A stretch of 64,000 nt of DNA from Paraphaeosphaeria minitans (taxonomy: Eukaryota; Ascomycota; Dothideomycetes; Pleosporales; Didymosphaeriaceae), in NCBI GenBank assembly GCA_015832175.1, contig WJXW01000010.1:1550001-1614000 (forward strand), in the 5' to 3' direction. A model generated the notes under the pieces. That model had not been told where the DNA came from and did not search any database. It saw only the letters and a program-made list of their open reading frames with translations. Numbering within the stretch: the first letter of the stretch is position 1; every line of letters starts with the position of its first letter. Positions 22,649 through 61,923 of this stretch are shown here, in pieces. The position numbers were made by a program, and so were the translations under genes.

Positions 22649-22853
22649 CCAGTTCCAATACCAGTTCCAATACCAGTTCCAATACCAGTTCCAATACCAG
22701 TTCCAATACCAGTTCCAATACCAGTTCCAATACCAGTTCCAATACCACTTCCAATACCACTTCCAATACCACTTCCAATCCCACTTCCAATCCCACTTCC
22801 AATCCCACTTCCAATCCCAGTTCCAATCCCACTTCCAGTCCCCATTCCAGTCC
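22649..22853. repeat. 12-bp minisatellite downstream of the F-box-like gene
   Basis: About 17 units of a 12-bp motif CCAGTTCCAATA, drifting to CCACTTCCAATC toward the gene. It ends about 20 bp before the stop codon of the F-box-like gene at 22874. The unit length keeps all frames open, giving spurious Gly-Ile/Leu-Glu type reading frames. Confidence 0.92.
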
Positions 22854-40581: not shown

Positions 40582-40586
40582 CCTTT

Positions 40587-40717
40587 TGTTGAATGGTAAA
40601 GTAGAGAGTATGAGTGATGGATTGATCTAGCTAGTGGGTGACGTATATATCAATAGAGGACTAGCTCCTTCCATAGGCGCTAGGCACCTTCCGGCTGCAC
40701 CAGAAGTTCCTTCAACA
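40587..40717 (-). repeat. 3' LTR of the Copia element
   Basis: 131 bp. It differs from the partner at 55296-55426 at only six positions, all G/A transitions. It has the terminal inverted heptamer TGTTGAA/TTCAACA. Confidence 0.95.
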
Positions 40718-40789
40718 GTCCTCCCAGGCGGAGGTGCCTATATACCGTAATTTAATACCTAAATATCTCAATTATGAGGTCCTTTTTAG

Positions 40790-43290
40790 AGTCGTTAGAT
40801 CATGTCTATTAACCTTATTAGGGTAAGTAATAAGAGCGCCTTAGTACATAAATCTACTAGATTGTTAATTAATAGCACATACTTAACTATAAATTTACTA
40901 TCTAAGTATCTCTCTTAAACAAAGTAGTAATATATATTAATATATTTAGATTTAGCTATTAGCTTCTAATCCTAAACTAAAGTAATAGTAGCTTTATTAT
41001 TAACTAAAAGTTAATAGGTAACTTAGGTATTAATTATCTTAGATATAGCTTATTGTATCTAGATAAGGTAGGTAGCAGTAAGTAACACTACTATATATTT
41101 AGCTTCTATAGTACTATAAGCAACACAACCTTATTACTTATAACTTTATGTAATAGTAGTAGATAACGCCTAAAGTATAAAACCTAAAAATAACTTTATA
41201 TTATCTAGGTCTATTCTAAATAACGCATCTAAGTACATGTCTATAGTAATAACATAAGAGTTAGGGTTAATAGAGGAGATTCTTAATTATCGCTCTACAC
41301 TATAGAGATATCTTAACACCTAGAACGCTAGCGTAAGATAAGTAGTTAATAGATTTAAATTATATAATTCTATTATACTAACTAGGTAGGACAGGTCTAG
41401 TCTTAAGACAAGAGTGATAAAATTCACTAACCTAATAATTAACTAATATAATTATTGTTATTTAGAATCCGCCAGTACATTAGGTAATAATCTTAGAGGG
41501 AACGTGTTTAGATCTAGTAGAGTTTTCCTTAAATTATATTTATCTATACTATACCTTCGCAGAACAGTAAGGATATAGGTGGTTTAGTAAATAAACATAC
41601 TGCTATTTTCATTATAATTAATTTTAAGGCTAAGGAGAAGTTTTAGTTAACCTAGATCTTTATAGGAAAACTATTGTCTAGTAGAATATATAAATAAGTT
41701 AATGCTATATTTTGTACTAGCTATTAGCACGTTATTAACGTATATCCCTAGTATTAATTCTAGGCTAATAAATATATATAGGTTAAAGTCTGCCTGTCTA
41801 AATTAAAGTCTAATAAGAAAAGTATATAACACTTTATACTACTCTTGTCCTAATTGCTTAAGGCCATAAAGCGTTTTTAAGAACTAAATAACTAATTAAG
41901 AATTACCTACACCTTCTAGACATTAACTATAGATAAGGTTTAGTAGAAGGCTATTTAGGTATACTATATTAAAGTCTAGTTACTATAGTCCCTAATATTA
42001 TATTAACACTATAAATAACATTATCCTTAATAATTTATATTATGCCACTAGTAAGTATATTTCTAAATAGTCTAGTCCTAGTTATTATAAAAAGCCTTAG
42101 GCAACTAACCTTACCTTACACTTTACTACCTTACTTTATTTGTTCCTCTTAGTATTAAATACCTATTTTATACCCACTAGCTTTGCATTAGTAGGTATTT
42201 TGTCTTAATATATAATCTCCTAAGTATAGTTTTTAGCATGTGCTCGCAATTCATGTTAGATAGGTTCTTACTATATTAGGCTGCAGGCCTAGGTATCTAA
42301 ATAGGATAGTAGTGTTTCCTTATTAATATATACTAATGTTCTATATATAGCTATCTTATAGACCTAGATATCTTTATTTATTAAGAATATTAAAGGTTAG
42401 AATTCTAAAGTTGTATTGCAAATAGTTAGACTATATTAGTTTAATAGTAGTTTACTAGACTAATATAGTAGTCTTACTACCCTACTTAATCGCGTTGTCT
42501 ATTCCTTAGGTGTAGTAGAAGAACTTATTTATAAGTTTATAGTTATTACTAATTATCTTAGTAGTAAAGATAGTAGGTGTATTATAAGTTGCGTTAATAA
42601 GGGCGAGGGATGTATTATAAGTCACGTTGTTTATAGGGAGGTAGATAATATTTCTTATTATAATATATTTATTCGCGTAATCGCATCTTAATCCTATGTT
42701 AGTTATAGTTATTAAGACGAATTTAGTAATCTAATTACATTAGGTATCTCTTTAGTGTGTCCTCTAACCTTTAGGGCCTCTAGTTTTGGAGGTTCTAGGA
42801 GAGGGTGTTAATAGGAGACTATTTTATAAATAGTGTTTTAGATAGAAGTATTAAAAAGTGACTTATTTAATAGCACTATAAAAGGTTAGTACTAAATATT
42901 ATAGGACTTAATAATTTATTATCGCGACAGGATAAAAATTCAGGCAGTTTTAGTGCTACTACTATGTCTTACAAATATACTAGTCTTAGCGTAGTGTAGG
43001 AATTTCAACCCTAGTACACGTGTCTCCTTTAGTATATAGATAAAAGCCTTTATACTAAAAGGGTAAAAGTGTTTAATAGCTAGTTTTTTGTTATAGAGCT
43101 ACTCGTGTAGTGTTCGCTTAAAGGTGTTAGATAACGTTAGTAGAACGCTTATTAGAAAACAAGCTATTATAACAGCCTTACCCTATAGTAGAAGAAAATT
43201 ATTAGAATAAATTATAGAGTAGGCTATCTAGGTAATAGTATAATTAAAACGCTCTGCCGTACTATTAAGCTTATAATAGTATAGTAGTAC
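40790..43290 (-). pseudogene. Copia pol remnant: end of integrase, reverse transcriptase, RNase H
   Basis: Read on the minus strand through stops, the segment gives an integrase C-terminal part with AERFN, then reverse transcriptase with IYVNNVLIAS in place of the usual YVDDLLIAS catalytic block (Asp to Asn by RIP). The Copia RNase H follows, with CVAYSTIEAKYI, a LVNNKATI block and KSKYINI-YYFVQE. The order and motifs are diagnostic of Ty1/Copia. The limits are approximate. Confidence 0.8.
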
Positions 43291-43602
43291 TGTTGGTTTG
43301 GCTTAATCTGCAATTAAGCATTTAAGGGTTAATAGTATACTATCGTGCAAAGGGTGAGAAGTAGGTTTAATTAATTACGTCTTGTCTATTGTATAAAGGG
43401 GCACTAAGGACCTTATAAAGTCTCTGCCTCTTGGCGCTAACCTAAGTAGGGGGTCCTTATACAGGTCCTTATAGGTAGGTAGGGCCTTATAAAGTCTCTA
43501 CTTCTTAGCGCTAACCTAAGTAGTAGGTCCTTGTGCAGGTCCCTATAGGTAGGTAGGCCCCTATTTTACTTAGTGCTATTTATACAATAAACTATATAGA
43601 CA
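43291..43602 (-). repeat. 3' LTR of the middle element
   Basis: 312 bp starting TGTTGGTTTGGC. It contains an internal tandem duplication with a period of about 74 bp (GGCGCTAACCTAAG blocks near 43433 and 43507). Confidence 0.92.
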
Positions 43603-43999
43603 CTAGTAACTTTTCTTTTATACAATAGCTTATATCTATTATACGCTTTCTCTTTCCTATCCTTCTCTATCTATATAGTTAGCCTTCCCCTATTAGAATA
43701 GGTTGTAAGGTAGGTGCAGTGTTACTATATAGTAGAGGTCCTATTTACACCTACTCTTATATAAATAGGTAGTAATAGCTAACCTACTTAGTTCTTACCC
43801 TACTCTTTTACATAGTAGTAGAGTTATATTACGTAATAAAGCTCTTTCTAGATATATATCTTATGCGTAAATAGAAAGTGGGGTGTTAAGTAATATAATA
43901 CTTAGCGCTAGGTCTTAGTAAGTAGGTATAGAAGGATCGCTCTTAGTCGTGCGATAAAGGTATATAGTAGAAGTAAGGTATAAGGTAGCTTTCTATACT

Positions 44000-45506
44000 T
44001 CTTTTTTATTACTCTATTAGTCTTATTTATCTTCCTCCTCTTTTATGCAATAGTTTTCTTCCTCTAGCTCTCTTTTAAAGTTAAGGATATATGCTTATAT
44101 ATCTATAGTAGAGGGTTTATATTTATAGAAGTTAGCGTACAGCGATATATTTTACCTTTTAGCTTACTAGGTATTCCTTAGTAGATAGTTAGTAGACTAG
44201 CATTTTTCTTTATAGTATATAAAGCATTTCTACTTTATATAAGAGCTTAAACTTTTAAAGTTACCTTTTCTTTTTAGTCTAAAGGTTAATCTGCCTCTAG
44301 AGGGGCTAGATCCTCTTATATAATTAGAATTATTATATTATTAATTAGTGTAGTACACCTCTTTACTATCTTAGAAGAACTATAACTTCTTCCTATCTTT
44401 AGTAACTTAGAGTAACGCACGAAGGTCGCTAAGTAAGCCTTCTACTATATTTTTAGGGTTAAATATAGCTTATTTAAGGTTAGAATAGCCGCAGTATGCT
44501 TATATAATAGTAGTGTGTAGTTGTAGTTTACTACTAAAGCCTTATCTAAAAGCCCTTTAGGCTAAAGTAAGCTTATTAATTATTACTTTTAGGGTCTTAT
44601 GCGATGTAGTAGCTAGATTATTCTTTTTATAGCGTTTAAAAGTAAGAGTGGTTTAGTCTATCTAGTACTAATTATAATTAACACTAGTGTTAAAGTGCCT
44701 ATTTAGTCTATTATACAATTTATCCTATAGAAGTCCTAGTCTAATATTGTGTAGGTAGTAGGTACTCGCACAATTAGAAAGAATTTCTAGAAAGATGTTT
44801 ACATACTAGTCCTATAGTATACCTAACCTGTAGTATAGTTCTCTAAAGACTTTTGTCTTGTCTACTAGAATATTATACAGCCTACTAGTATAGTTATTCT
44901 TTTTACTCTAAGCCTTCTAAAAGAGGATAATCTTGTCTAGCTAGATATAAGTATAATCTCTTAGTTATTAAGGAGACTAGGAGTGTCTAGCCTTTTTGTA
45001 TAATGTAGTTTATTAGGTAAAAGCAGTCTAGGTTTTAGGCTACTACTACTAGTATAGCTCTATATATAGTGTCTCTGTCCTCGCATGTATAGGGATAGGC
45101 CCTAGCTATACTCTATATATATATACATTGCCTACAGATAGTGTAGGTTACATTATTAGAATCATGCGAAGTAATTTAGGTTACGGTTATAGTGTTATTG
45201 TATAAAAAGTCTATAGCTTATAGTTAAGCTATAATAGTTTAAAGAGTTTCTTTACATAGGTGTTCTTTATTATAGAATTAGTAGTAATAAAGCCTTCTTT
45301 TATAAGAAAAGTAATAAGCTCTTTTCTTACTATATAACTAATCTTATTAAAGGTTTTCTTCTTCTAGTTATTAAAATCTTTAGTAAAAGAAGAGATTACC
45401 TCTTTACTTTTAAGGCTACTTACGTAATATTGCGCAATTATATACACTATATAAGTGTTTAGCTATTTTAGAAAAGGGGGTAGGTAGCTGTGTAGATCTA
45501 CTCTAT
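44000..45506 (-). pseudogene. Gag-like remnant of the middle element
   Basis: On the minus strand, read through stops, the segment gives helical gag-like sequence (LYLARQDYPL near 44935) and a cysteine cluster KCFICYKEKC near 44220, close to the zinc knuckle of fungal Copia/Gypsy Gag proteins. No pol motif follows before the left LTR. The limits are approximate and the product is not translatable. Confidence 0.6.
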
Positions 45507-45916
45507 TGTTACGTACCAGATAATAATGTGGGACTTGGGCGCTTATAAAGGTGTAATGGAACAGCGACAGGGTTACAAACATAACAAAAAGACACTAAGT
45601 AACTTAGATTAGGTCACGTAATGTGCTTAGTCGCTTAGTAGCACTAAGTAGTAGAGTAGGTTACGTAATGTGCTTAGTTACTTAGTAACACTAAGTAATA
45701 GAGCAGCCCTATTATATAGAAACATGAGGATAGACCTCTATACTTGTGTTTAATCTATTTATTAATCTATTATTTGGATTCTAGTAGACTAAATTGTTAA
45801 CTTGTTACACTTTGCAAGATACTATTATATTAATAAGACCTTCTACCTTCTGTAAGTACTCCTGCCTAAGAACTAACCTTAACCTTTTAGGACTAGCTAC
45901 CCTTTTAGATTTAACA
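45507..45916 (+). repeat. 5' LTR of the Gypsy element
   Basis: 410 bp starting TGTTACGTACC. It contains a short tandem duplication with CTAAGTNNCTTAG-type inverted motifs (about 45595-45705). Confidence 0.93.
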
Positions 45917-46249
45917 TCTTAAACACCCTTAATATAAGTACTTTACAAACTTCTACCTCTTCTATAGCTTTAGGTGCCGCTAAGATTACTTTTATAAAGG
46001 ATAGTAGTAAGGCGCACAAACCTAATTTCTACTTTAGTAAACAATTTTAAACTAATATCTAGATTCTCTAGTTAGACCTCTACTTCTTTAACTTAGATAA
46101 ACCCCTTAAAAACAAAAAGAAGATTATCTTCGCAGCAATATATATATAAGGAGATGTAGGATTATAGATCTATCTCTACCTTAAAAAGTACCTAGGAATA
46201 GACCATAATAATAATAATAATAATTACGTAAATAAACACGCTAATGCAG

Positions 46250-49200
46250 TTAATATTATTAAGAATTATAATAACTTTAAGAAATACCTTAAATAACTCT
46301 TTAGGATTGCTAATAAGGACTCTATTACAAAAGCAAAGATTTAGACTATAACTTAGAAATAATTAGTAGCTAAGTATATAGCTAAGTTTTGCAGATACAC
46401 TGTGTAGCTTAACTAGAATAATAAATCTCTTTAGAACATGTATAAATAAGGACTTAAATAGAAACTATGTAAGGAACTCCTACATAGTAGTACATAAATT
46501 ACTAACTTTAAAGAACTATATAAAGAACCTATTAGAATTAATAGAGAATAGTTTTTACTGTAATAGGAGCTCTACTAAAACCCTAGGGCGATAAGCTTTA
46601 GATAACTAGTAAAAATAGTTTATAAAAACCTTATTAGAATTGTCTAAAAGCAACAGCTAAGGAACTACTAAAGATACAAACTAATAGAAGATGTCTAGTT
46701 TAACTATATAGGTAAAGGAAAAAAAAGAAGAATAGGCCTTAAGTAGCCTAATAAACGCGTCTCTAATAGAAGTTAATAACTAATAACTAAGACCTATAAA
46801 TGCTTTACATATGGCAAACTAGGCTATATAGCTAGGAACTATAGATTAAAGAACAAAGTCTATTAAACTAAGTTAAATATACTAACTATTAAGGACTAAG
46901 AACCTAATAAGGAATAGAAAGTTATTATAACACTATTTAGTTACTAACGCGTTACACTAGAGTAAAGTAAGTAATTAAATTTACCTAACTTATAACTATA
47001 CGAAGATCTAGAAGATAACTCCAACGTATACTATAACATAGAAGATATAGAAGAGATACTAAGATCTCCTACTCCTTACCTATAAAGTAGGCAGGAAGAA
47101 GATAACCCTATATTACCTAAGTATAAACTAAATATTTAGGACTATATAGAACCTTACTAGGCACTAAAAGAGATATAACTCTATAAAAATAAGAAATTAG
47201 ACTACGTACTAAAGTACTATCTAGACTACTAAAATCCTACACACTAATTCTGTATATAGACGCATTGCGAAGAACTAATATATGTATAATATAAGGCAGA
47301 GAAAGAGGAGAATAAGAAATAACCTAGAAAGAAACTGCGCTGTAGATAGGTGTAGATAAACTGCTTTATCGCAGCTTATAATAAACACCTCTAGAATAAA
47401 TAATAAGTAAAATACTTTCCTTATCTTACGCTAAAGGGTAATAAATACTATAATATGCTTATTAATAGAGACTGTATATAACTGTACTAGTATACGTGTC
47501 TAAACTAAGACTGTAAATACTACTATATAGCTAAATATTTGGACAGCTTTATAAACTGCCCTACATAAGAAGTAATAATAGAACTACTAATTTAACTAGT
47601 ATATAGGAATAGTGAAGACTGCGAGAGGAAAAATAGAAGAATATCCTTATAGGAAGAAGAAGAAGATAATCTATATAAGCTATATACTTAAGAATAATAA
47701 TAGAAGCAGATGCTTAGAAACACATACTAGGCACTAGAACTTAACTACAACCTACACAAACAGATATCTTTTTTAGGCCTAAACTTAGATAAGAAAACGC
47801 CTTTATTAAATTAAATACTATAGTAAGTATAGTATTAGTTAAGCTACTAGTACAGCTTAAAAGAATATAGGCTTAAGCTCTTATAGACTTAGGAGTAGAA
47901 AAGAACTTTATATCTTATTAGATAGTAAGATAAGTAGGACTCGTAATATTAGAGAAAGAAGTACCCTATATTATCTATATTGTAAATAGATCCCTAATGC
48001 CTAAGACACTTTAGATATACTAGAAGGTTACTACTATAATAATAGTCTAAGGATATAGAGAGGAACTTACCTTAGATGTCTTATTAGGATCTAAGTATAA
48101 GTTAGTCTTAGGATTACTTTAGTTAATAATACACAACCTATAGATTAACTAGGGTACAAAAAAAATATTATTTAAATGCTATAATTATGTATTATAAGCA
48201 AAGCCTACACATTAATTAAAAATAATAGTAGATAAGGGAGTTATTAATAACATAATACTGTAATAAATAGTTAAAAAATAGAAGTACACTTTAGTAGACG
48301 CTAGTAGAAACTACTAGATTAAAAAGCGTAAGAAAAAGGACAACAGCACACCTCTTACCTTACTAAAAGAGTATAGGAAATAGACATATATATTCATAGA
48401 AAAGGAAGGAAAAGTAAACCTACTAGAACATTAACCCTAGGATCTTATAATAGACCTAGAAGAAGGGAAGACGCCACCCTTTAGACTACTATATAGTAAG
48501 ACAGAAGAAGAACTCCTTAAAGAACGTAATTTTATTAAGACAAACCTTAAGAAAGGATATATATAACTATTAAAGTTACTAGCAGTAAGCCCTTTCATGT
48601 TTATTAAGAAAAAGGATGGATTAGATAGACTATACGTTAACTACTAATAACTTAATAATATAATAATAAAGAACTAATATCTACTACTAAATATTATAGA
48701 GTTACGAGATTAACTATCTTAAGCTAAGATATTTATAATAATAGATCTAAGAGACGGTTACCACCTTATACAAATTAAAAAAGGTAAAGAATAGAAAATA
48801 GCGTTTTAATCACGCTATAGACTATTTAAGTATAAAGTTATACTATTTAAACTTATAAATGCACTAGCAGCTTTTATGGCACTTATTAACAACGTACTCT
48901 ATAAATATCTAGACATATTTATTATCGCGTATATAGATGATATCCTTGTCTTTTCTAAAAACGAATTAGACTACACTAAGTATATATAGATAGTACTAGA
49001 AGCACTAGACAAAGCATGCCTTTGCATTAAACTTAAGAAATATAAGTTTAACATTAAATAACTTAAATTCCTAGGACACATTATTACTATAGAAGGAATT
49101 GAGATAGCACTAAGTAAAGTTAAATATATTAAGAACTAGCTAATACTAAAGATAGCCAAGAATGTCTAAGAATTCTTAGAATTCTATAGATTTAATTAAC

Positions 49201-51150
49201 AATTTATCTAAAATTACGTAAAAGTTATAATACCTTTAATAAATCTTATAAAGAAGGACGTACCCTTTAAATAGATAAATAAGTGTAGAATGTTATTCTA
49301 ACTCCTTAAGATAGTATGTATTATAGAACCTATTCTTGTTTATTTTAGAAGTGATAAACCACTACGCTTTAAAATAGACGCTAGCGATCTTACGCTAGGC
49401 GCCTACGCTAAATAAAAATATAATAGTAAATAGCACCTAATTGCCTATTACTTATGTAAATTTAATAACGCTAAAACACAATACAACGTATATAATAAAG
49501 AACTCTACGCTATTATTAAAGCCTTAAAGTACTAGAGGATTTACGCGCTTAGTTGCTTAACGCTAGAAATCTATATAGATTATAAGAATCTTCTAAGGTT
49601 CACGATAACAAAAGAACTTATACTATAATAATAAAGATAGTTATAAACTATAGGGCAGTATAAGTTTAGAATTATCTATATAGCTAGGAAAGAAAATAGC
49701 AGAGCAGACGCTCTTAGCTAACAAAGTAATCTAGTAGGAGAAAAGGTAAAAACTTTCTCTATAATCTTTTATAAAGCTAAAGATAGATCTCTAGAACTAA
49801 TAGTAGAACTAAATTAACTTTTAGTAATTAACTAAGAAGTTCTAAAATATCTATAGACTAAGATTATCTAACAATACTACGATGACCCTATATACAGACA
49901 CCTAGGTATTATAAAGATAATAGAACTTATCTAAAGGAATTACACCTTTAAAGGAATTAAGGAAGCTATAATAACTTATATCTATAAATGTGTAGAATGC
50001 TAAAGAAATAAATATAGTATATATCTTAAATATAGAGAGATGTAAGCAATTAGAATACTAACAGCACTATAGGAAGACATTGCTATAGATTTTATTACAG
50101 GAATTCTAAACTCTAAGGATCTAATAACAGGAATTAAATACGATAGTATACTAGTAGTAGTCTACTAACTAACTAAGTATATTAAGCTTATTCTATGTCT
50201 TAAAAGAATAATAGTAAAGGAACTTACTTTTCTTATCCTAGACTAACTAATTAGATATTATAGAATCCTAAAAATAATTATTAGCGATAGAGATAAGCTC
50301 TTTATGTTAAATTATTAGATAACACTTATAGCCCTACTTAGAATAAAATAAAAGCTATTAACAGCTTACTATCTATAAATAGACAGATAGACAGAACGTA
50401 CGAACTAAACTATAGAAATGTACCTACGCATCTACTACAACAGTTAGAAGAATAACTAGGTTTTATTACTACCTATAGCACAGTTAGCCTATAATAATAA
50501 AGTATTAGTAGTATTAGGATATACACTATTCTATGTAAACTATAGAAGACACCCACATCTCTTTAATTAACAATTTCCTATAACAATTAAAGTAAAAGAA
50601 GCTATAGATATAGTAGAAAATATAAAGAAAATACACTAATAACTCTAAGAGAATTTTAAGAAAGCTTAGTAGCAATTAATTTTATACTAAAACTAAAAAC
50701 AAAAAATAGCACCTTAGCTAAAGAAGGGGGATAAAGCATATCTACTTATAAAGAACCTTTAAACTTAGAAAAAGAAATATAAGAAATTAGATTATATTAA
50801 GGTTAGACTATTTTACATTTCTAAGTAAATATTACTAGTAAACTATAAGTTAGAACTACTGCTAGATGCAAAGATACACCTAGTATTCTACGTATTACTA
50901 CTAGAACTAGCAGACCCTAATACACTAGTTAAAACCACCTTCTACTACTAGACTAAAAAAGAAAATAAATTTAAGGTTAAAAGAATTCTAGAATATAATT
51001 AGTATAGTAACGCGTACCTTATTAAGTAGAAAGGTTACTTACATAGCAAAAACACTTAGGAACTAAAGAACTACTTAGGAAACTATTAATAAAAGATTAA
51101 AAAATTCTATTAATAGACTTACTTAAGATAGTAATACTAAAGAGTTATCC
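46250..51150 (+). pseudogene. Gypsy gag-pol remnant with chromodomain
   Basis: On the plus strand, read through stops, the blocks occur in Ty3/Gypsy order. Gag has a CCHC knuckle near 46795-46850 (two Cys now Tyr). A protease-like DLGVEKNFIS block lies near 47890. Reverse transcriptase has FIKKKDG, DLRDGYH and the intact YIDD catalytic motif at 48930-48941. RNase H has KIDASDLTLGAY near 49370. Integrase has a CxxC end of its zinc region near 49995, DFITG and an ERTNQTIE-like block. The chromodomain at 51012-51085 has YLIK-x-KGY where the key Trp codon is now TAG. Most stops sit at Gln or Trp codons, as RIP produces. Confidence 0.9.
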
Positions 51151-51678
51151 TAGAACTTAGGAGGCAGGTTATCTATTACTAACTATATAGACGTGCTAGG
51201 TTTAGCTAGACTAGTAGGCTAAGTAGGATAAGCTAGATCCTTCTCTAACTCTAGCTCTGCTAGAGCAGCACTTTTTACTATAATAACCTTACTAGTATAC
51301 TTTTTATTCTGCGCTAACTATTTTACTAACTAATTCTCTTTTACGCGCGCTATATATAGGGCCTTAAACACTATATTTTATTCTTTTTACACTTTTAATA
51401 TTTACGCCTTTAGCTTCTTCTTCTTAGTAATTAACTGCAAGAACTTATTCTTAGTAATAGCTATATTACACTTTAAGCTTTATTTCTAACACTTACTACA
51501 CTTCCCTAAGCTAATATAGACTTTGTAAACGCAGGAGTGCGACTTATAGAAGGAGTACTTTAACACTATAACTACTTTATAGTTTTTAATAGTAAAGATA
51601 AGGTTGTAACAACGCTTTATAGAATTATAGTTAGCAGGTATAATTCTTTAGGACGAAGAATAGAAAGGGAGGGGATAA

Positions 51679-52088
51679 TGTTATGTACTAGATAATAATA
51701 TAGGACTTAGGCGCTTATAAAGGTGTAATAGAATAGTAATAGGGTTATAAATATAACAAAAAGACGCTAAGTAACTTAGATTAGGTTACGTAATATGCTT
51801 AGTTACTTAGTGGCACTAAGTAGTAGAGTAGGTTACGTAATGTGCTTAGTTGCTTAGTAACACTAAGTAATAGAGTAGCTCTATTATATAGGAATATAAG
51901 AATAGACCTCTATACTTATGTTTAATCTGTTTATTAATTTATTGTTTAGATTCTAGTAGACTAAATTATTAACTTGTTACACTTTGTAAGATACTATTGT
52001 ATTAATAAGACCTTTCACCTTCTGTAAGTACTCCTGCCCAAGAACCAACCTTAACCCTTTAGGACTAGCTACCCTCTTGGATTTAACA
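51679..52088 (+). repeat. 3' LTR of the Gypsy element
   Basis: 410 bp, same length as the left copy. The differences I see are C/T or G/A transitions. Confidence 0.93.
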
Positions 52089-52293
52089 TCTATCTACCTA
52101 GTACTTTTGTGCAATCTCTCCTCTTAAAGTAATAGCCTTAATGTTTATTACTTCCTCTACTTATTAAAGCTATATTGCTTTGTCTTCTTACTAAGGAGGT
52201 AGTATTAATTATTACGCGACGTCCTTAGGTTGTAGTTCCTCTAGGAAGTCTCCTAGTCTTAAGGCTATATTATTATTATCTTTCTTAGTTATA

Positions 52294-52378
52294 CGACGTG
52301 TCTGCGTTTAGTTATTACTAGTTTAATTATGCGACGTGTTTGCGTTTAGTTATTACTAGTTTAATTGTACGACGTGTT
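52294..52378. repeat. 38-bp tandem repeat in the middle element's leader
   Basis: Two 38-bp units starting CGACGTGT plus a partial third. They lie between the 5' LTR and the Gypsy insertion. Confidence 0.85.
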
Positions 52379-52402
52379 TTTTAGGGTTGTGAATATACTT
52401 AC

Positions 52403-52632
52403 TATCTCCTTTCTTTTCTATAGAATAGCTTAGACTAGATTATACAACTCTTTATAGATATACGCGCTTTATTTCTGCTTATTATATAATCTAAAATTTA
52501 ATCTCTAGTAAAGGTATTATCTCCTTTCTTTTCTGTAGAATAGCTTAGACTAGATTATACAACTCTTTATAGATATGCGCGCTTTATTTCTACTTATTAT
52601 ATAATCTAAAATTTAATCTCTAGTAAAGGTAA
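52403..52632. repeat. 115-bp tandem duplication in the middle element's leader
   Basis: Two copies of 115 bp (from 52403 and 52518) starting TATCTCCTTTCTTTTCT, with a few transition differences. Confidence 0.9.
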
Positions 52633-52720
52633 TAATATAGAGCCTACGTATCTAGCTTATAGGGCGCTCTGTCTTTAGACCTTACTAGTTTATAGTTAAT
52701 TAGAATTAACTACTAATTAG

Positions 52721-53032
52721 TATTAGTTTAGCTTAATCTATAATTAAGTATTTAAGGGTTAATAGTATACTATCGTGTAAAGGGTGAGAAGTAGGTTTAA
52801 TTAATTACGTCTTATCTATTGTACAAAGGGGCACTAAGGACTTTATAAAGTCTCTACCTCTTGGCGCTAACCTAAGCAGGGGGTCCTTGTGTAGGTCCTT
52901 ATAGGTAGGTAGGGCCTTATAAAGTCTCTACCTCTTAGCGCTAACCTAAGTAGTGGGTCCTTGTGCGGGTCCCTATAGGTAGGCAGGCCCCTATTTTACT
53001 TAGTGCTATTTGTACGATAAACTGTACGGATA
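52721..53032 (-). repeat. 5' LTR of the middle element
   Basis: 312 bp, same length as the left copy, with TATTAGTTTAGC at its start in place of TGTTGGTTTGGC. The same internal duplication is present, so it predates insertion. Confidence 0.92.
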
Positions 53033-53037
53033 AGTAC

Positions 53038-55290
53038 TATATTATAGTGTATACCTTAGTTGCGCAAAAAGGTTTAAAGTAATATAGATATATACTTACC
53101 TCTATTATTAGTTTTAAAATGTTAAAAAACTTGTGTTAAGATAATATTAGAAATCTTATATCCTAAGAACTAACGCTTAAAATAGGCTATAAAGTCTATA
53201 ATAGCCTAAGGTGCATCTAACTTCTTTTCTAGGAACCTAACCTATAGGTAGTAGGTAGCACTATTAATAAAAAAGATATAGTATCTCTTACTACTAAGGC
53301 TCTTTATACTAAACTGTCCTAATAGGTCTAAATATATAACCTCTAGTAGTTTAGGTAGATGTATTATTTGCGTAGTTTCTAGTATAGGTGTTTTATAGAT
53401 AGACTTAGACAGGATATATGTATTGTAATAAAAGTTAAATAGTCTTAAGGGGATAAAGTAAGCGTCTTAATATAGTCTTTAAGGGTTAATAATATTATAG
53501 TGTTTAATAGTAATATACTATTCTTTAAAGGAACTAAAGCACGCTATTACTATTTTACTATATCTTAATATTCTATCTTTATTTAGGGTGTCTGGCGCAG
53601 AGATAGGGATAGTGTTATAGAGGATAGTGTTATTATTAGTCTAAATTTAGACAACTCTATCTAAGTAATATACCTATAAGATATAGTTATTATTGCAAAG
53701 GAGGTAAAGGTTATTCTTAGAAGCCTATAGGTTAAATCTTACACAAATATAACTTTATAAAAAGAGTCTTATTATAAATAGGTCTCTACTATAGAGTGTA
53801 TTAGTAAGTTTAGTAATTTTTATTAAATTATTAGAGAGATAATAACAAAGTCTAATTATTCTAACACCTTAAATAGGAAGGCGTATGCCTCTAGTAATAG
53901 TAATTATTCTAGAGCCTAAAGATAGGCTTAAGAAGTTATCCATACATCTAAATATATACTATAAGGCGCTAGTGTTAAATAACTAGACTAGGGTAGATAT
54001 TAATAGATAAGAAAGGGACATAGCTTAGGCACTTATTTTATTATAGGACTATTTCTTGTGTATATTAACGACTAGTACAGCGTTAGCGATAAAGGCGTTA
54101 ATATTAGTGTTACTATTATTATTATTATTATTACTAATAATAATAGCTTTATTAGCTTTCTAACACTTTATTCTATATCTATCTATCTTTTATCTAGTCT
54201 ACTTTGCTTTTACGTAGGCCTATACCTAGGTCTTTTCCTATTTATCCTTATGCTTCCTTAGTTAGTCACAGTTAGTATACACATAACTAATAAATATTAT
54301 ATTGTGTTTTTAGCACTAGGTATACTCTATAGGTAGTAGTTTTAACCTAGTATATGCTGTTTAGGTCTAGGCGGCATAGGTAGTGTTTTTAGAGTTAGTA
54401 GTATTAAAGAAAAACTTCTCTAATATATCTAGAATTTTAGGTTTAATGTCCTAGAATACTGTAACACTATAGGTGGCTAGATTATTAATAATATTATCTA
54501 TAACCTCTAGAAAGGTTATAAGAAAGAAAGAACCTTTAACCTTATTACTTTTAAATATAGTTCTTATAGCAATAGTAATAGGTTAGGTAGATGCTATAGT
54601 TCTCTTAGACATTCTTGTCTAATAAGTATAAAACTTATTAAGGTGGCTGCGAAGGTTATCTCTATTATAGTAGCAAAAGTTAGTTAGACTATAAAAGAGG
54701 AGGATTAATAAATTACTAGTATCTTAATTAAATCTATTTATTAGGTATTCCTATACCTATAGTAAGGTTTTGTAGTTTACTACTACTATAGTAAGATTAT
54801 TATATATTAATAATAGGATTATTACTATTACCTTATTATTATTAGCTTCCTATATCTTAACAGTTTTACTATAAATAATTAGGGCTATAGAATTAGCGTT
54901 AGCTAGTAGTGCTAGGCGTAGTTTCTTATTTAAAATAATAGGCTAGAGGCCTATATATTAAAATGCGATTGTCTAGACTAATTAGTACTCTAAGAAGTTG
55001 TTACTATAGGCGTTTAATTATAGTAGTAATAATAAATCTAGCTTAAAGCTAAAAGATAATATTATAATAGTAATAGTTAGTAGTTATAATAGTAGTTATA
55101 GTTACTATAAGTATATTGCGGTTTATAAGGGTTATAGCTAGTGTAGTGCAAGGTGTCTTTTTTATTAGAATTTTAGAACGCAGCAGCAGTAGCCTTAAAA
55201 TATATTATAATAGTATAGGATCTATAAAAGAAATCTATTACTATAGGTAATCGCGATAATAGAGTATTAGCAGTAAAAGCGCTAGGCTTA
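53038..55290 (-). pseudogene. Copia gag, protease and first part of integrase, remnant
   Basis: On the minus strand, after the right LTR, comes an unreadable gag region, then a protease-like block near 53990 (WLFNTS where the family has W-x-D-T/S-G). The pre-integrase and integrase core follow, with YLDLLGQFS-like sequence near 53300. It stops at the insertion site of the middle element (AGTAC at 53033-53037) and continues beyond it at 43290. It is destroyed by stops. Confidence 0.7.
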
Positions 55291-55295
55291 TAACC

Positions 55296-55426
55296 TATTA
55301 AATAGTAAAGTAGAGAGTATGAGTGATAGATTGATCTAGCTAGTGGGTGACGTATATATCAATAGAGGACTAGCTCCTTCCATGGGCGCTAGGCACCTTC
55401 CGGCTGCACCGGAAGTTCCTTCAACA
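55296..55426 (-). repeat. 5' LTR of the Copia element
   Basis: 131 bp, same length as the left copy. The outer end is TATTAAATAG where the other copy has TGTTGAATGG, a clean G-to-A RIP pattern. It is followed by the CCTTT target duplication. Confidence 0.95.
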
Positions 55427-55431
55427 CCTTT

Positions 55432-57210
55432 TAGTGTGTGGGCGTGCCCGATAAGCACAAGACAAGCACCTTACGCTTGATTTTAATGAGCCAAGGTGAG
55501 AGGGCCATAGTTATGGCAAAGTGGACGGTTTTGTGGCTCACTGTTCGTGTATAAGCGGGTACCATAGTTTGTATACTCTCCGTGAATAGCTCACTGCTTC
55601 AATCCATCCTACATTTGTTTTTACCGCTTCCCGAGTCGTTATAACCATAGTACTCGATTCTCGGATATTGTTCGGTGCCTCGACACAACAAGGATAGAGT
55701 TGCTTAAACATGGTGTCCTGGATGCATGGTCATGGATGCGCACTTTAGCCGTCGCCCGAGCGCCCGCGCGCTACAGCACCCAGCAAGATCTTGAGGGTGT
55801 ATGCAGTCATTCCCATTCGGTGCTGATAAGAGATGCACAATCATAAAATGATGCGCAAGTTGTGCTATCGAGTGTGAGTGGGTGCGCACACACGGCCCTG
55901 CAGGTGTGAGTGTCCCCATCTATGGAGAGCATGTTGGCGATGGTCACGAGTAAGAGACATTCACTCTTCAGAGAAGCAGAGTTGGATACTGCATCTTTGA
56001 GCTCAGCAACCTGTTCGGAAAGATCGCCATGCTGTCGAGCAGCTCACTCAGAGACCCTATTGCGCAATTCAGTCCAGGCCTGCCTGGGTCACTCTTCCCC
56101 GCTTGAGATCCTTTCCGGTGCTCATGGTTTGATGCTGCGCCGCCGGAATGCATAAAACGGCTTTCCCGGCCACCCGAAGTCGTTTCGGCTGGCAGCTACG
56201 AGCTTAGCCTGCGATTATTCCCCCAATGAAAGCAAGCCATGTGATATAGGCCATCCCTGGAAGAACCCATGCGAGTCTTGCCAATGCTGAGTCCTTACCT
56301 ACCACGAACGGGCCGTTTTCACACTTTGTATGCGGGGCGAACACGGTCAAATTCACCGTGGTGACAATCAAAGTCGGAAGCAAACCAAATCTGTGCCGCG
56401 GTGGGCCACGTCAAGCCTCAAGATCCTCGTTGTGCGCGGGAGAGTTAAATTCCCGAGAGGGCAATTGTTTCTCGCGATTGTTTCTCGCGAAGAGAGAAAC
56501 AATGGTGGTATTGGCTGAAGAGGGGCCCAAGATGGTATCGATAGGCAAGACGTGGAGACGGGAGCAACTCTTGTTCTTCCCGCAAGCGCTGTGGATGCTG
56601 AGGCCCGTGCTAGCGTGTTGATCGGGTGCAGGTGGGCATGAGGTGGGGGTCGGTTTTAGCGCATCAAACAAACAAAACTCAACGTTCATTGGATTACGAG
56701 ACGAAAAATAACGGGTAAAAATGTCAGCCTTGGCGCGAACCCTGTGACATCGACCAAATCAGACAAATGCCACGCGCAAGCCAACGTCAAGCGAGTGGTC
56801 GGCGCGTATTTGGGCCTGCCGTACGGTGCGGCGCCCCTCTAGTGTCTCGGCAAGCTGACCTCCAGATCCATTTCTATCTCCTATGTGAGGGTCCATGCTA
56901 TTTTGCGGCGTAGTGCTGCGTGGCTGCTGCTAAATCGTTTGCCTAAGCTGGGGTTGGTTGAGTCCATGTTGGAAGAGATCTTCGAGCGCCTGCTGCCCAA
57001 GAATAGCCACTTTTTGGATACAGCTTGCGGGCTGCCCGTGCCACGCGGGTATTTACGCATAATAAATATACGCTGCACGCTTGTCACGCCTTCGAAGTAG
57101 TTTCCTTCTCTTTTGGTCCGCTGGCGTACATTGTTTTACTCGTTTAATACCCCCAAGCGCCCCCGGTCTGGACTGGAAGCTCGCTTGTCACATCCACCTC
57201 TCGTTCCATC
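55432..57210. other. Intergenic after the retrotransposon nest
   Basis: About 1.8 kb of ordinary composition up to the DUF3176 gene. Frames of 60-92 codons lie on both strands (for example 55910-56155 and 56411-56689) without domain or signal. An inverted CTCGCGA pair lies near 56470-56490. No gene is called. Confidence 0.5.
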
Positions 57211-59772
57211 ATGCCCGGCCGTGGCAGATTTCCAGTGTCCCCATACTGGTCATCAAACCCAAACATTCCAATATACCTTGAACAAGGCGAAGAACGGAAG
57301 GAACCTGAACACGAGGCGCCCCGACCAACCTCCAATTCATCACGTCAACACCCAAGGCACGCCCCCGAATTCATATGTCCTACCTGCGAAACGAGCTCAA
57401 GGGACACGCCAATACACTGTGTGTCCGTCGCGGCCTCACCAGCTCCGCCGTCATATAACTCTCTCACACCTTTGCCCAAGTCGCCCAGGCATCTGACCGT
57501 ACCTACCCTTACCGTTCAAACACCACGAGACTGGGAGAGACCCAGGCCGCCTGGCCGGTCCCTGCAATTCGACCCGGAGGGAAGACCCAATGTACGCTTT
57601 CGTCGGAACGCATTCTCACCCCTCTCTCCGACCGTGACAGAAATCGATGAGATCGACTGGAGTCGCAAGAGTCAGGTTGGGCTCGGGATAGTGGGAGGTG
57701 CTCCTATTCGTCATGATACCAGCCCAATCACGCCTGGGACCGCGGAAAGAAGGGGCGAAGAAGAGGCTGAAAATATAGGCAAAGCGTCAAACTTTGCCCA
57801 ACGTATTGAGCAGAAGCTATGGAATTACACTGCTTCCAGAAATGTGGTGAAGAGGTGGATAATTGAGATCACCAGTTGGTCGCTCAGCGTCGCTTGTATG
57901 ATGGGCATTGTCATCATGCTGTTCTTCTACCGGGAACAACGCATCCCGAAGTGGCCTCTAGGCTTGACTCTCAATGCCTACATCTCCGTCTTGGCTAAGA
58001 TCGCATCTGCGTTTTTACTGCTACCAGTGTCTGAAGCAATAGGTCAATTGAAGTGGAGCTGGTTCCACAAAGGAAAATCGAAGAAGATGTGGGATTTTGA
58101 GATCTTCGACAACGCCTCTCGAGGACCCTGGGGCTCGCTCCTTCTGCTCGTTCGCACGAAAGGCCGGTCCCTCGCAGCACTAGGCGCCGCTGTTACACTT
58201 TTTGCTTTGGCTCTTGATCCATTCTTCCAACAAGTCGTTGAATATCCCGAACACTGGCGTCTCCAAGCGGAAGGCAAAGGACAAATCCCGAGAGCGCTGG
58301 GTTACGATCCTTTCCAGTCAGATGCAGAGTACCAGATGGCAATGCAAAGTGTCCCAGTAGACCAAGCCATGCTTGCCCTTGCGGAGCGGTTTTTCTACGA
58401 TAACGGCACGGTGCCAATGAATTTTGGCAAGGGAGTCAGAGCTGAAGTTCCACTCGGGTGCTCCAACAGCAACTGCACCTGGCCCGACTACGAAACCTTC
58501 GGCGTCCACAGTGAGTGCGTCGAAGCTACCGATCGTTTAGAGTTCAAATGTCTCCATAAGACTCTTGACTGGATCCAATCCCCACAACTTGATCCCGATC
58601 TCCTCACGGACCCAATTTATCCCAACGGGACTGCGTGTGGCTGGTGGCTCAAGGCAGACGAACCGCTCCTTATGACTGGCTACGATGTAGACAAAAATAC
58701 CGCACACGCAGGTGAGGTACTTCTGATGCGAACTCAACCCCTTTACGATATGTACTCGAGAGAATGGCTACCAGGGTACGAAGCCAAACTCAACAACAGT
58801 CGAAGTCCACTGGCCCACGTTGTCATAGTTTCAGGCCGAGATCTGGAACATACTCACAGAAACGATACTCCCATAGCTCATGAGTGTATCATATCATGGG
58901 CTGCGAAGACTGTAAGATCGACGTACACAGAGGGTGGCTACAGCGAGGAAGTCATCAATGCCGTCATTAACAATACAGTTGGCACCACTCCCTGGCTTAC
59001 CGACGTGATCCCCTCCGTCAATGAGGCATTGATCAACTACGACTACTACTATCTGGAAACTCCGATCTGGGTGCAAGGAATCAACGGCACCATGTATAGC
59101 GTTAACAACTTCACTATGCTAGCCATCGTGACAATGTTCGACGATATGTTCCCCTCTACCTACACCCTCGTCAATAGCACGAACATAGAAGACGCTATGC
59201 TGCGCTACAGATGGTGGAAGTCGATCAACCCTCACACGCGAAATATGACCTTCAATTCCTTCCTATTCGACAATGTCACGACCCACCTGGAACTCATGGC
59301 CAATGCAATGACCAACTTGATGCGATCAGCATCGACTCACACAGAATTGGTCCACGGTGAAGCTTTCGATCAAGAAAGCTTTGTGGAAGTGAGATGGTGG
59401 TGGATGGCACTCCCACTCGGTCTGTTAGCATTTTCCGGTATATTCCTGCTCATTACAATCATTCGAAGCGATAGAGAGCAGGACCACGTAGGCATCTACA
59501 AAACGTCAGCCATCGCAACCCTACTGTTCGGCCTGCCTGATAAGATGTCGGAGAAAATGACATCGGACAACAAAAATGGCACGCCACGAGCGCAAGCCAA
59601 AGAAGTAAAGGTTCGATGGGTTCCGAAGATAGGATGGCGATTCTCGGGTATGAGTGTATCGACCGCCTCGGCAAAAGCTGGAGGCTCCCCCGTCTCCACA
59701 GTGTATTCGCGTTCCAGCACTGCTCCTACGGTCAAGGCGAAGAAATCGCCTCCCACGGAGCATTGGATCTAG
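57211..59772 (+). CDS. DUF3176 family membrane protein
   Basis: Function unknown; a family restricted to fungi and often multi-copy. It is a single exon of 853 aa. The N-terminal about 210 residues are Pro/Ser-rich and probably cytosolic. Then come three hydrophobic segments: about 222-241 (SLSVACMMGIVIMLFFY), 254-277 (YISVLAKIASAFLLLPVSEAI) and 320-341 (SLAALGAAVTLFALALDPFF, the family's best-known block). Between them is the typical KWSWF and FEIFDNASRGPWGS region. A large loop with many Asn-x-Ser/Thr sites and paired Cys (such as LGCSNSNCTWP) is likely outside the cell. A fourth segment at about 729-751 (LPLGLLAFSGIFLLITII) leads to a short cytosolic tail. The start codon follows a pyrimidine-rich leader. 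Confidence 0.92.
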   Translation: MPGRGRFPVSPYWSSNPNIPIYLEQGEERKEPEHEAPRPTSNSSRQHPRHAPEFICPTCETSSRDTPIHCVSVAASPAPPSYNSLTPLPKSPRHLTVPTLTVQTPRDWERPRPPGRSLQFDPEGRPNVRFRRNAFSPLSPTVTEIDEIDWSRKSQVGLGIVGGAPIRHDTSPITPGTAERRGEEEAENIGKASNFAQRIEQKLWNYTASRNVVKRWIIEITSWSLSVACMMGIVIMLFFYREQRIPKWPLGLTLNAYISVLAKIASAFLLLPVSEAIGQLKWSWFHKGKSKKMWDFEIFDNASRGPWGSLLLLVRTKGRSLAALGAAVTLFALALDPFFQQVVEYPEHWRLQAEGKGQIPRALGYDPFQSDAEYQMAMQSVPVDQAMLALAERFFYDNGTVPMNFGKGVRAEVPLGCSNSNCTWPDYETFGVHSECVEATDRLEFKCLHKTLDWIQSPQLDPDLLTDPIYPNGTACGWWLKADEPLLMTGYDVDKNTAHAGEVLLMRTQPLYDMYSREWLPGYEAKLNNSRSPLAHVVIVSGRDLEHTHRNDTPIAHECIISWAAKTVRSTYTEGGYSEEVINAVINNTVGTTPWLTDVIPSVNEALINYDYYYLETPIWVQGINGTMYSVNNFTMLAIVTMFDDMFPSTYTLVNSTNIEDAMLRYRWWKSINPHTRNMTFNSFLFDNVTTHLELMANAMTNLMRSASTHTELVHGEAFDQESFVEVRWWWMALPLGLLAFSGIFLLITIIRSDREQDHVGIYKTSAIATLLFGLPDKMSEKMTSDNKNGTPRAQAKEVKVRWVPKIGWRFSGMSVSTASAKAGGSPVSTVYSRSSTAPTVKAKKSPPTEHWI

Positions 59773-60873
59773 GAGATCCTGCTCATGGACACCGCCGGGC
59801 CTTATGCTCGCGTTTTGAGCCGCTCTTTGATGTACATGGTAATTAATTTGATTACCCCTTCGAGCTGCGCCGTCCACGAAAAACTCATACGCTCCCCCGA
59901 AAATGATTATTGGGTCTGCTTGCCTGTTCGCGATGAATGTATTACGTACCTCTCGCTGGTTGTGGTACCTGGCCCGATTGGACACAAGGATGATGAGGTC
60001 CCATGTTCGTGCAGTTGCTCGAACAGCTGTTGGTCGAATCGCAAAAGCCGATTCCAGCGGCAGCGCATTGACACGTGAGATCGGATCGTCGCTTCACTCG
60101 TTCAGAGCCGATTGTACCCTCATATCACTACCTTCTAGATACGGCCAAGACTTTGTGAGTCCCAAGGTCTGCATTGATTTCCTGCAGAAGCGATGCGGCG
60201 TAGTCCTGGCAAGAGATGGTGATTCCCAACTGAAGAACCCGTCGAGTAGGATTCAATAAACTCGAGGAGCCAACGAAAAGCGTCTGCGTAGCATTGCAGT
60301 CCATGCGAGCAAGCCAGGCGCTTAGAGGGCAAGCCATACGCTTCCGTCCAACGGACTATCTGGCCAGTGAGAGACGTGTATATCTGGTTGTAGTATCTAG
60401 TCGACCGATTGGATACGGTTGCTCCAATGATGAATGCTGAAGATTGGCACGCCCGTCGTCGTGGTTCAGGGCGGCTAAAGGGTTCACGTGCCGGTGCTGA
60501 GCTTTAGCCAGATGCAGGTTAGACCGGCGCCTATTTTTAACGTAATGCGTCCACTATCACGCATCTGCATGGAATTCGACATGTGGACACAGCGCTTCGG
60601 TACTCTGAATCACTCCCGTGTCGCTCCAATCAAGGCCAAGACTCCAACGATGCCCTCTCACACCCGATGCGTTTCGACGAGGATAAAGTCAGCTCGCACC
60701 CCGACTTTGAAAGTCCAGAGGATCCGGATCTTCCCAGCGCATTCTTTGCAATTCAACTTCTACTCCAAGGCTGTGCCTTCCATTTACTGCTTTTACTAAT
60801 TTACACGTGCTGTGCACTGTCTGCAAACCAAAAACAACAAACACCAAAACAACTAATTCACCACATCGTCAAC
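59773..60873. other. Intergenic, including the promoter of the repeat-peptide gene
   Basis: About 1.1 kb. The same frame as the next gene is open from 60583, but its first 97 residues lack features and lie before a clear signal peptide, so I treat them as non-coding. The last about 60 bp before the ATG are rich in CAAA/ACAA, typical of leaders of well-expressed fungal genes, after a pyrimidine-rich stretch near 60755-60800. No other gene is seen. Confidence 0.55.
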
Positions 60874-61923
60874 ATGCGTTCCGCTCTCATCATCGCAACT
60901 TTCGCGCTCGCCGCCTTCGCTGCCCCCATTTCTGAGGCCGATTTCAGTGTCGCACGCGACCCCCGCTTCAGGAACAACGGTGGACGTGATCTTGTCGTTG
61001 AGACCCGTGCGATCAGAAATCAGGGACGCGCCATCAGGAATCAGGGTCGTGCCATCAGGAATCAGGGGCGTGCCATTCGCAACCAGGGCCGATCAGCTGA
61101 GGAAGACGACGAAGTAGAACTATCAGTTGAAGAGATCGAGGCACGCGCGATCAGGAACCAGGGACGCGCCATCCTGAACCAAGGGCGTGCTGCAGAGGAG
61201 GACGAGGACGAGGAGTCAATCGAGGCCCGCGCCATCAGGAATCAGGGTCGTGCCATTCGCAACCAAGGCCGTGAGGCCGAGGCCAATCCTGCCATTCGCA
61301 ACCAAGGACGTGCTATCCGCAATCAAGGCCGTGAAGCCGAAGCTGAGCCTGCGATCCGCAACCAGGGCCGAGCCATTCGCAATCAAGGCCGTGAAGCCGA
61401 AGCTGAGCCTGCGATCCGCAACCAGGGCCGAGCCATTCGCAATCAAGGCCGTGATGCCGAAGCTGAGCCCGCCATTCGCAACCAGGGCCGGGACGTCGAG
61501 GACGATGAGGAGACTATTGAGGAGCGTGCTATCCGCAACCAAGGCCGCGCCATTAGGAATCAAGGCCGCAACGCTGAGGCTGAACCTGCCATCCGAAACC
61601 AAGGAGGAAGAAATGGACGCCGCAATGCCGAAGCCGAACCTGCCATCCGCAACCAGGGACGCAATGCTGAGGCTGAACCTGCCATCCGAAACCAAGGAGG
61701 GAGAAATGGACGCCGCAGTGCTGAGGCTGAGCCTGCCATCCGCAACCAGGGACGCAACGCTGAGGCCGAGCCCGCTATTCGCAATCAGGGCCGCGCTATT
61801 CGCAATCAGGGCCGCGCTATTCGCAACCAGGGTCGCTCTACCTGGGCCAGCGGACTCATTGAAGCCCTCAAGGCCCGCGGCTTTAACAGCTCCAACCTCG
61901 TTGAGGCCCGTCAAGTGAACTGA
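60874..61923 (+). CDS. Secreted precursor with 24 tandem AIRNQGR-type peptides
   Basis: A single exon of 349 aa, not recognised as a named family. Residues 1-17 (MRSALIIATFALAAFAA) are a signal peptide. Residues 18-45 form a short pro-region ending ETR. Then come 24 peptide units: 21 exact AIRNQGR, one AILNQGR and two AIRNQGGRNGRR. Units follow one another directly after Arg, or are separated by spacers: EAEAEP, EAEANP, DAEAEP, NAEAEP, SAEAEP, and three longer acidic ones (12-18 residues) that end EAR or EER. The last 28 residues are a unique tail starting STWASGLIEALKARG. The layout resembles fungal pheromone and RiPP-type precursors cut by Kex2-like and dipeptidyl-peptidase enzymes, but cuts here would be mostly at single Arg, and the core lacks the aromatic residue of known dikaritins. 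Mature products are likely short AIRNQG(R) peptides; this is inference. Confidence 0.9.
   Translation: MRSALIIATFALAAFAAPISEADFSVARDPRFRNNGGRDLVVETRAIRNQGRAIRNQGRAIRNQGRAIRNQGRSAEEDDEVELSVEEIEARAIRNQGRAILNQGRAAEEDEDEESIEARAIRNQGRAIRNQGREAEANPAIRNQGRAIRNQGREAEAEPAIRNQGRAIRNQGREAEAEPAIRNQGRAIRNQGRDAEAEPAIRNQGRDVEDDEETIEERAIRNQGRAIRNQGRNAEAEPAIRNQGGRNGRRNAEAEPAIRNQGRNAEAEPAIRNQGGRNGRRSAEAEPAIRNQGRNAEAEPAIRNQGRAIRNQGRAIRNQGRSTWASGLIEALKARGFNSSNLVEARQVN

Follow-up and report, generated by a model that had tools for sequence, protein, structure and literature searches.

A repeat gene of Paraphaeosphaeria minitans with the features of a secreted AIRNQG peptide precursor

We identified a gene (gene A) in Paraphaeosphaeria minitans, described as a mycoparasite and studied for biocontrol, that probably encodes a secreted multi-copy precursor of the Kex2-processed-repeat type. 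Its main product would be linear AIRNQG, likely a short extracellular signal, and we give this reading a probability of about two in three. Processing of the precursor is well supported by sequence features. Its actual secretion, its actual cleavage and the linear form of the peptide are predicted, and the signalling role is suggested by analogy.

A first-pass annotation of the window (the whole 64,000-nucleotide stretch of DNA analysed) described a reading frame with a signal peptide, 24 repeat units and a unique tail. Our recount gave exactly the same frame and tail and the same units (21 AIRNQGR, one AILNQGR and two AIRNQGGRNGRR). The parts of gene A are:

60874..61923, + strand: precursor open reading frame of 349 aa, a single uninterrupted frame from the ATG at 60874 to the TGA ending at 61923
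60874..60924, + strand: signal-peptide-like N-terminus MRSALIIATFALAAFAA, cleavage site assumed; similar in genes B and C and in relatives
60925..61008, + strand: pro-region ending in VETR, an aliphatic-x-x-R putative Kex2-type site (motif as given in PMC8528282)
61009..61836, + strand: AIRNQG(R) array of 24 units with spacers
61093..61146, + strand: acidic spacer SAEEDDEVELSVEEIEAR, with aliphatic-x-x-R at its end
61189..61230, + strand: acidic spacer AAEEDEDEESIEAR
61492..61527, + strand: acidic spacer DVEDDEETIEER
61273..61290, + strand: Ste13-type spacer EAEANP, the first of nine
between 61273-61290 and 61773, + strand: the remaining Ste13-type spacers (EAEAEP twice, DAEAEP, NAEAEP four times and SAEAEP)
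61588..61623, + strand: long unit AIRNQGGRNGRR, with a second copy at 61681-61716
61837..61920, + strand: unique tail STWASGLIEALKARGFNSSNLVEARQVN

The N-terminus is hydrophobic (Kyte-Doolittle mean 2.44 over residues 4-17), and its start motif recurs in 12 of the 13 family sequences defined below (the exception is P0011); the putative signal peptide is based on these two features. The start codon, signal-like region and 5' flank are common to two neighbouring paralogues. Tyr, Trp and Phe are absent from all 24 units, as the first-pass annotation said of the core; Trp and Phe are present in the tail. Each repeat is better taken as a hexapeptide, AIRNQG, followed by an Arg to be removed.

The gene A units are under strong purifying selection. 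Nineteen of the 24 21-nt unit DNAs are distinct and the differences are nearly all silent, so the array is not a fresh DNA duplication. With all pairs pooled, pS is 0.76 and pN 0.037 over the seven codons, and pS is 0.783 and pN 0.031 (ratio 0.039) over the first six; the nine 6-residue spacers have a ratio of 0.18 and are less constrained than the units, all these values being approximate because pooling counts related copies as if they were independent and pS approaches saturation. In a simulation, each unit received as many base differences as it shows, at random positions. AIRNQG is kept in 23 of the 24 units, against a simulated mean of 1.64 and a maximum of 7 in 20,000 runs. The peptide is what selection keeps, a conclusion that does not depend on the approximate pN/pS ratio.

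Gene A lies on contig C10 of the genome that we searched (47.45 Mb, 30 contigs) and comes first of three genes in tandem on the same strand. The other two are:

contig C10 1614115-1614399, + strand: gene B, 94 aa, with AIRNEGRR, AIRHQGP and other single units
contig C10 1615870-1616961, + strand: gene C, 363 aa, with AIRNQGKR, AIRNEGKR, PINRINGR, PISRNTGSYRR and other units

The three genes have related signal peptides, common 5' flanks and different cores. Gene C, 4 kb downstream of gene A, shares 362 of its 363 residues with P. minitans PMIN02_007405. We compared flanks over 450 bp upstream plus 60 coding bases, and the similarity includes the coding start in part. The flank of A aligns with that of C at 71 bits (E 9e-17) and with that of B at 52 bits (E 4e-11), and the alignment between B and C scores 33 bits (E 4e-5). 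In a control made with the A flank only, no more than 24 bits were reached against 40 other segments, taken from the first 20.4 kb of the window. Shared flank blocks include GTGCYGTGCACT. Two further flank elements and the upstream neighbour of gene A are:

60767..60779, + strand: 5' flank element AAGGCTGTGCCTT, identical in gene C and AGGCCGTGCCT in gene B
60807..60818, + strand: 5' flank element GTGCTGTGCACT, identical in gene C and with one change in gene B
57211..59772, + strand: DUF3176 protein, with no visible tie to peptide processing

A Pfam scan of ten open frames around the locus identified this DUF3176 gene upstream and a RIO kinase downstream; three further downstream frames among the ten had no Pfam match. 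On the upstream side, beyond an AT-rich block, the same scan found a nitronate monooxygenase (38644-39480, 21 kb from gene A), a dynein light intermediate chain, an RRM protein, a RasGEF and an arrestin-like protein.

The AT-rich block occupies 16 kb of the window (40001-56000, GC 0.27-0.35), about 5 kb upstream of gene A. It contains two similar 74-bp arrays (43407-43564 and 52843-52994) and two similar 47-bp arrays (45592-45703 and 51767-51878), and looks like mutated transposon remnants. Elsewhere in the window, at 22649-22837, a 12-bp unit, CCAGTTCCAATA, is repeated in 15.8 copies with 97% matches.

The neighbourhood bears on one of the first-pass options, a RiPP precursor such as that of ustiloxin (a dikaritin, cyclic), which we consider highly unlikely. 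A signal-like start, short repeats and a Kex2-type plan would fit such a precursor, and the genome has at least 27 stretches that match UstYa (DUF3328). None of these was found on contig C10, and the nearest frames tested are DUF3176 and RIO kinase, with one nitronate monooxygenase 21 kb upstream. A dikaritin core is expected to have an aromatic residue for cross-linking, and the 24 units contain no Y, F or W. Precursors of this type are also reported to be without the Ste13 signature that gene A carries (PMC6339444).

We identified nine proteins in a search of a protein collection with gene A at E ≤ 0.001, in which the 8000 candidates sharing most words were scored. Gene A itself is absent from these nine annotated proteins, and it is probably unannotated or annotated in a different form. 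We take the family as A, B, C and ten proteins (P0001-P0007 and P0010-P0012), 13 sequences in all, in which P0007 is a near copy of gene C. P0008 and P0009, with E near 8e-4 and TPR-type Pfam labels, were set aside as unrelated composition matches. The hosts with a name, P. minitans, P. sporulosa, Karstenula rhodostoma and Paraconiothyrium brasiliense, all belong to the Didymosphaeriaceae (order Pleosporales), a statement that covers the family apart from P0002, P0005 and P0012. When gene A, P0006, P0010 and P0012 were used to search the genome, no family members appeared outside the A-B-C locus, the weak matches lying on contigs C11 and C9 (E 0.3 and 1.3).

AIRNQG occurs 23 times in gene A, six times in P0004, four times in P0003, twice in P0005 and once each in gene C and P0007; the other seven of the 13 sequences have none. 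Some relatives thus share AIRNQG, and others have different, though related, units on the same carrier.

Of 44 AIRNQ or AIRNE units, 27 are preceded by Arg and 15 by Pro, so that 42 follow one of the two residues expected from processing. The count covers A, B, C and nine relatives; P0007, which nearly copies C, and the unrelated P0008 and P0009 are left aside. The two exceptions are SG-AIRNEG in gene B and RA-AIRNQG in gene C. All nine short spacers in gene A parse fully as X-Ala, X-Ala and X-Pro dipeptides, three each. The core follows three dipeptides in gene A and one (SP) in P0004 of Paraconiothyrium brasiliense, which points to Ala as its N-terminus. In P0002, AVRGSx units follow EAEA, EAEAEP or EP, so that the number of dipeptides varies and the core start is constant. 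Such X-Ala/X-Pro dipeptides are described as the Ste13 signature of alpha pheromones; the same study reports the signature absent from Rep1, cyclic-toxin and epichloecyclin precursors and proposes it as a mark of peptide hormones (PMC6339444).

In gene A, the last four residues are IEAR, IEAR or IEER in the acidic spacers and VETR in the pro-region. Similar endings after acidic letters occur in ten of the 13 family sequences (not in B, P0004 or P0011). Kex2/kexin is described as taking Arg at P1, with an aliphatic residue preferred at P4 and P2 varied (PMC8528282). Two N-terminal context types in gene A thus converge on Ala-Ile-Arg. Units that stand alone between two spacers set the register against an NQGRAIR reading, with a cut after AIR still possible. 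The genome has one kexin P-domain match, with a subtilase domain and 'Kexin' as its best PDB match (E 3e-179), and two DPPIV/Ste13-type genes.

Dibasic sites are few in gene A (two RR; no KR, KK or RK). Once 17 aa are removed, a cut at RR gives three fragments, of 231, 29 and 68 aa. The 12 other members of the family each yield 4 to 16 fragments; gene C has 15 KR/RR sites and P0002 has 11.

These features suggest the following route. In the secretory pathway, kexin would cut after single Arg residues, at the aliphatic-E-x-R endings of the pro-region and acidic spacers and at the NQG-R endings of the units. A Ste13-type dipeptidyl aminopeptidase would trim EAEAEP-like letters in pairs (XA, XA, XP) and halt at Ala-Ile, and a Kex1-type carboxypeptidase would take off the terminal Arg. 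The main product would be linear AIRNQG, at 21 copies per precursor, with AIRNQGGRNG (two) and AILNQG (one) as minor products. AIRNQG may then act outside the cell as a short hormone- or pheromone-like signal, to self or to another organism.

Several points run against this model. The NQG-R ending, with Asn at P4 and Gly at P2, is not a preferred kexin site, and gene A has only two dibasic sites; the internal AI-R could also be cleaved, so that other products are possible; two of the 44 family units do not follow Arg or Pro; and dipeptide trimming in gene C would run into the core. For mushroom Kex2-processed repeat proteins (KEPs) expressed in Pichia, some products are described that apparently end at single arginines, with Ste13-type trimming and linear peptides (PMC9769878). 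This analogy and the reported absence of the Ste13 signature from Rep1 and cyclic-toxin precursors (PMC6339444) lead us to prefer a linear secreted signal.

The same spacers weigh on the idea that the product is a wall or surface protein, either uncut or cut into fibril-forming pieces like Ustilago Rep1. The precursor is repetitive and of a secreted type, and Rep1 peptides are reported to form amyloid-like surface fibrils (PMC8528282). The gene A units are short and polar and contain no aromatics, an uncut protein would have no obvious need of dipeptide spacers, and Rep1 is reported to be without the Ste13 signature (PMC6339444). We regard a wall role as quite improbable.

Gene A is also unlikely to be a divergent alpha-type sex pheromone of P. 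minitans. Ste13 spacers, a multi-copy plan and a STE2 receptor gene in the genome favour this identity. The AIRNQG core has six residues and is without PYG[LM]P[IV]G, the signature given for Pleosporales alpha pheromones (PMC6339444), and the two adjoining paralogues carry different cores. The strict PYG pattern has one match in the genome, outside the frame of the longer ORF at that place. A relaxed PYGxPxG-like pattern has 17 scattered matches (27 in the control), one of which is the strict-pattern match; the other 16 were read in frame and none resembles a repeat precursor. A Cys-pair pattern has 14 scattered matches (three in the control, and thus above chance), all read in frame and none a repeat precursor; each of these cores is single in its stretch, amid stops or few KR/RR. 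That the patterns yield no tandem precursor with either type of core counts for the pheromone reading, but they would miss an altered or intron-split pheromone, so the absence is weak. In this genome, which has a STE2 gene, the patterns found no tandem alpha-pheromone precursor built on either of the cores known from Dothideomycetes.

The main rival to a self signal is a role towards hosts or competitors. The released peptides may act on other organisms as effectors, antimicrobials or anti-competitor agents, for example during sclerotial parasitism, and the acidic spacers would hold a cationic peptide quiet until release. We consider this possible and rather doubtful. Net charge in gene A is +51 for the units and -43 for the intervening spacers, a balance similar to that known in other cationic-peptide precursors. 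Cores and N-terminal halves vary between species and between P. minitans records, as in arms-race genes, and gene A is about 5 kb from the 16-kb AT-rich block. Six mushroom KEP knockouts are reported to have no apparent phenotype, and biotic roles are suggested by the authors (PMC9769878). A peptide of six residues, of which one is basic and none is aromatic or Cys, would make a poor membrane disruptor, and Ste13 signatures are argued to indicate hormones, with effectors named as a non-exclusive option (PMC6339444).

Whichever organism the proposed signal addresses, its core appears to change within the family. P0002 and P0006 have the signal region and tail of gene A, yet carry 12 AVRGx units and seven GFR[SGA]N units, respectively. 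The tail STWA[SN]GLIEALKARGF occurs in these two only among the 12 other family sequences; a protein search with the tail alone scored 34 candidates with none at E ≤ 10, and its low power is plain from its failure to recover these two proteins. The carrier is retained and the peptide exchanged in some relatives, a pattern that suggests rapid change of a secreted peptide. Among 38 distinct six-residue starts after a Ste13-type prefix (from A, B, C and nine relatives, with an expression that also catches some pro-region or spacer text), 17 have their first basic residue at position 3 and six have it at position 4. The remaining 15 fit neither position, six of them having no basic residue, and an Arg-3 rule across the family is thus a tendency only.

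Gene C homologues labelled P. minitans (P0007, P0010 and P0001) have one half in common and the other half different. Between P0007 (PMIN02) and P0010 (PMIN03), the second halves agree at 159 of 161 aligned residues and the first halves at 47 of 134. Nothing in the genome matched residues 1-118 of P0010 at E ≤ 10. These genes may be mosaics, alleles or paralogues, and strains of P. minitans may differ in the family. P0011, from P. sporulosa, has Cys-containing stretches (VFCPCRDW and ALCICRDY) beside YVRGQHKR and INRINGR units.

A tentative extension is that the cluster is a peptide-signal cassette locus. The signal peptide, acidic and dipeptide spacers, tail and promoter would form a constant carrier, on which whole arrays are converted between hexapeptides (AIRNQG, AVRGSx and GFRxNQ, many with Arg near position 3). 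The secreted peptides would then be specific to a species, or even to a strain, and be read by an unknown receptor. If true, this would be a fast-evolving recognition system apart from the sex pheromone. A constant carrier with swapped cores would offer a clean system for how peptide signals change, and a family that seems strain-variable in a biocontrol mycoparasite is directly testable.

We found no Pfam match above cut-off for gene A at E ≤ 1, none for B, C, P0002 or P0006 at E ≤ 0.01, and no match for gene A in a PDB sequence search at E ≤ 1. Open-literature searches returned nothing on gene A; the string AIRNQG had no match in the text of 5.39 million open papers, and AVRGSN had none either. 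The first-pass view of an unmatched core therefore stands for the AIRNQG string; the class, which is KEP-like, is known, and the gene is not isolated, since it is one of a tandem family. The secreted multi-copy layout that the annotation likened to alpha-pheromone and Kex2-repeat precursors is borne out by the arrangement of the predicted parts.

Among known systems, multi-copy animal neuropeptide precursors have units that end in G-R, as in gene A, or G-K-R, as in its relatives. Gly-Arg and Gly-Lys-Arg ends are an amidation-like signal. The genome has no match to the amidating enzyme peptidylglycine monooxygenase (PF01082), but control genomes gave none either, so this difference is weak. Ustiloxin- and phomopsin-type RiPP precursors share the signal peptide and repeats; gene A differs in that it has single-Arg sites, Ste13 spacers, no aromatics in its units and no UstYa found on its contig. 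Ascomycete alpha-pheromone precursors share the repeat plan, XA/XP dipeptide spacers and Kex2/Ste13/Kex1 logic. Gene A has their Ste13 dipeptide signature and differs in its hexapeptide core, without PYG[LM]P[IV]G or a Cys pair, and in its tandem paralogues with different cores.

KEPs are described with a signal-like start, many identical short peptides between basic residues and Ste13 dipeptides (PMC6339444, PMC7329392), all of which recur in gene A. Gene A differs in having two dibasic sites, mostly 7-residue units and two N-terminal processing types in one array. Its 24 units exceed the three repeated motifs expected of a KEP, and apart from the two RR sites its repeats are not split by KR, RR or KK. 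Le Marquer 2019 describes cutting at KR/RR and then KK and requires at least four fragments (PMC6339444), and Umemura 2020 requires at least three repeats of at least 8 aa between dibasic sites (PMC7329392). With two RR sites and three fragments, gene A should fall outside both surveys by their written rules; its relatives with 4 to 16 fragments may well be in the survey lists. Umemura type #15, which includes Paraphaeosphaeria, is probably something else, since 45 of its 49 members are reported with DUF3328 genes (PMC7329392). Single-Arg arrays with uniform 6-residue products would escape dibasic-site surveys, and fungal secreted peptides may thus be undercounted. The precursor class of gene A is already known; as far as literature searches show, what appears to be new is the family, its single-Arg array and the exchange of cores on a constant carrier.
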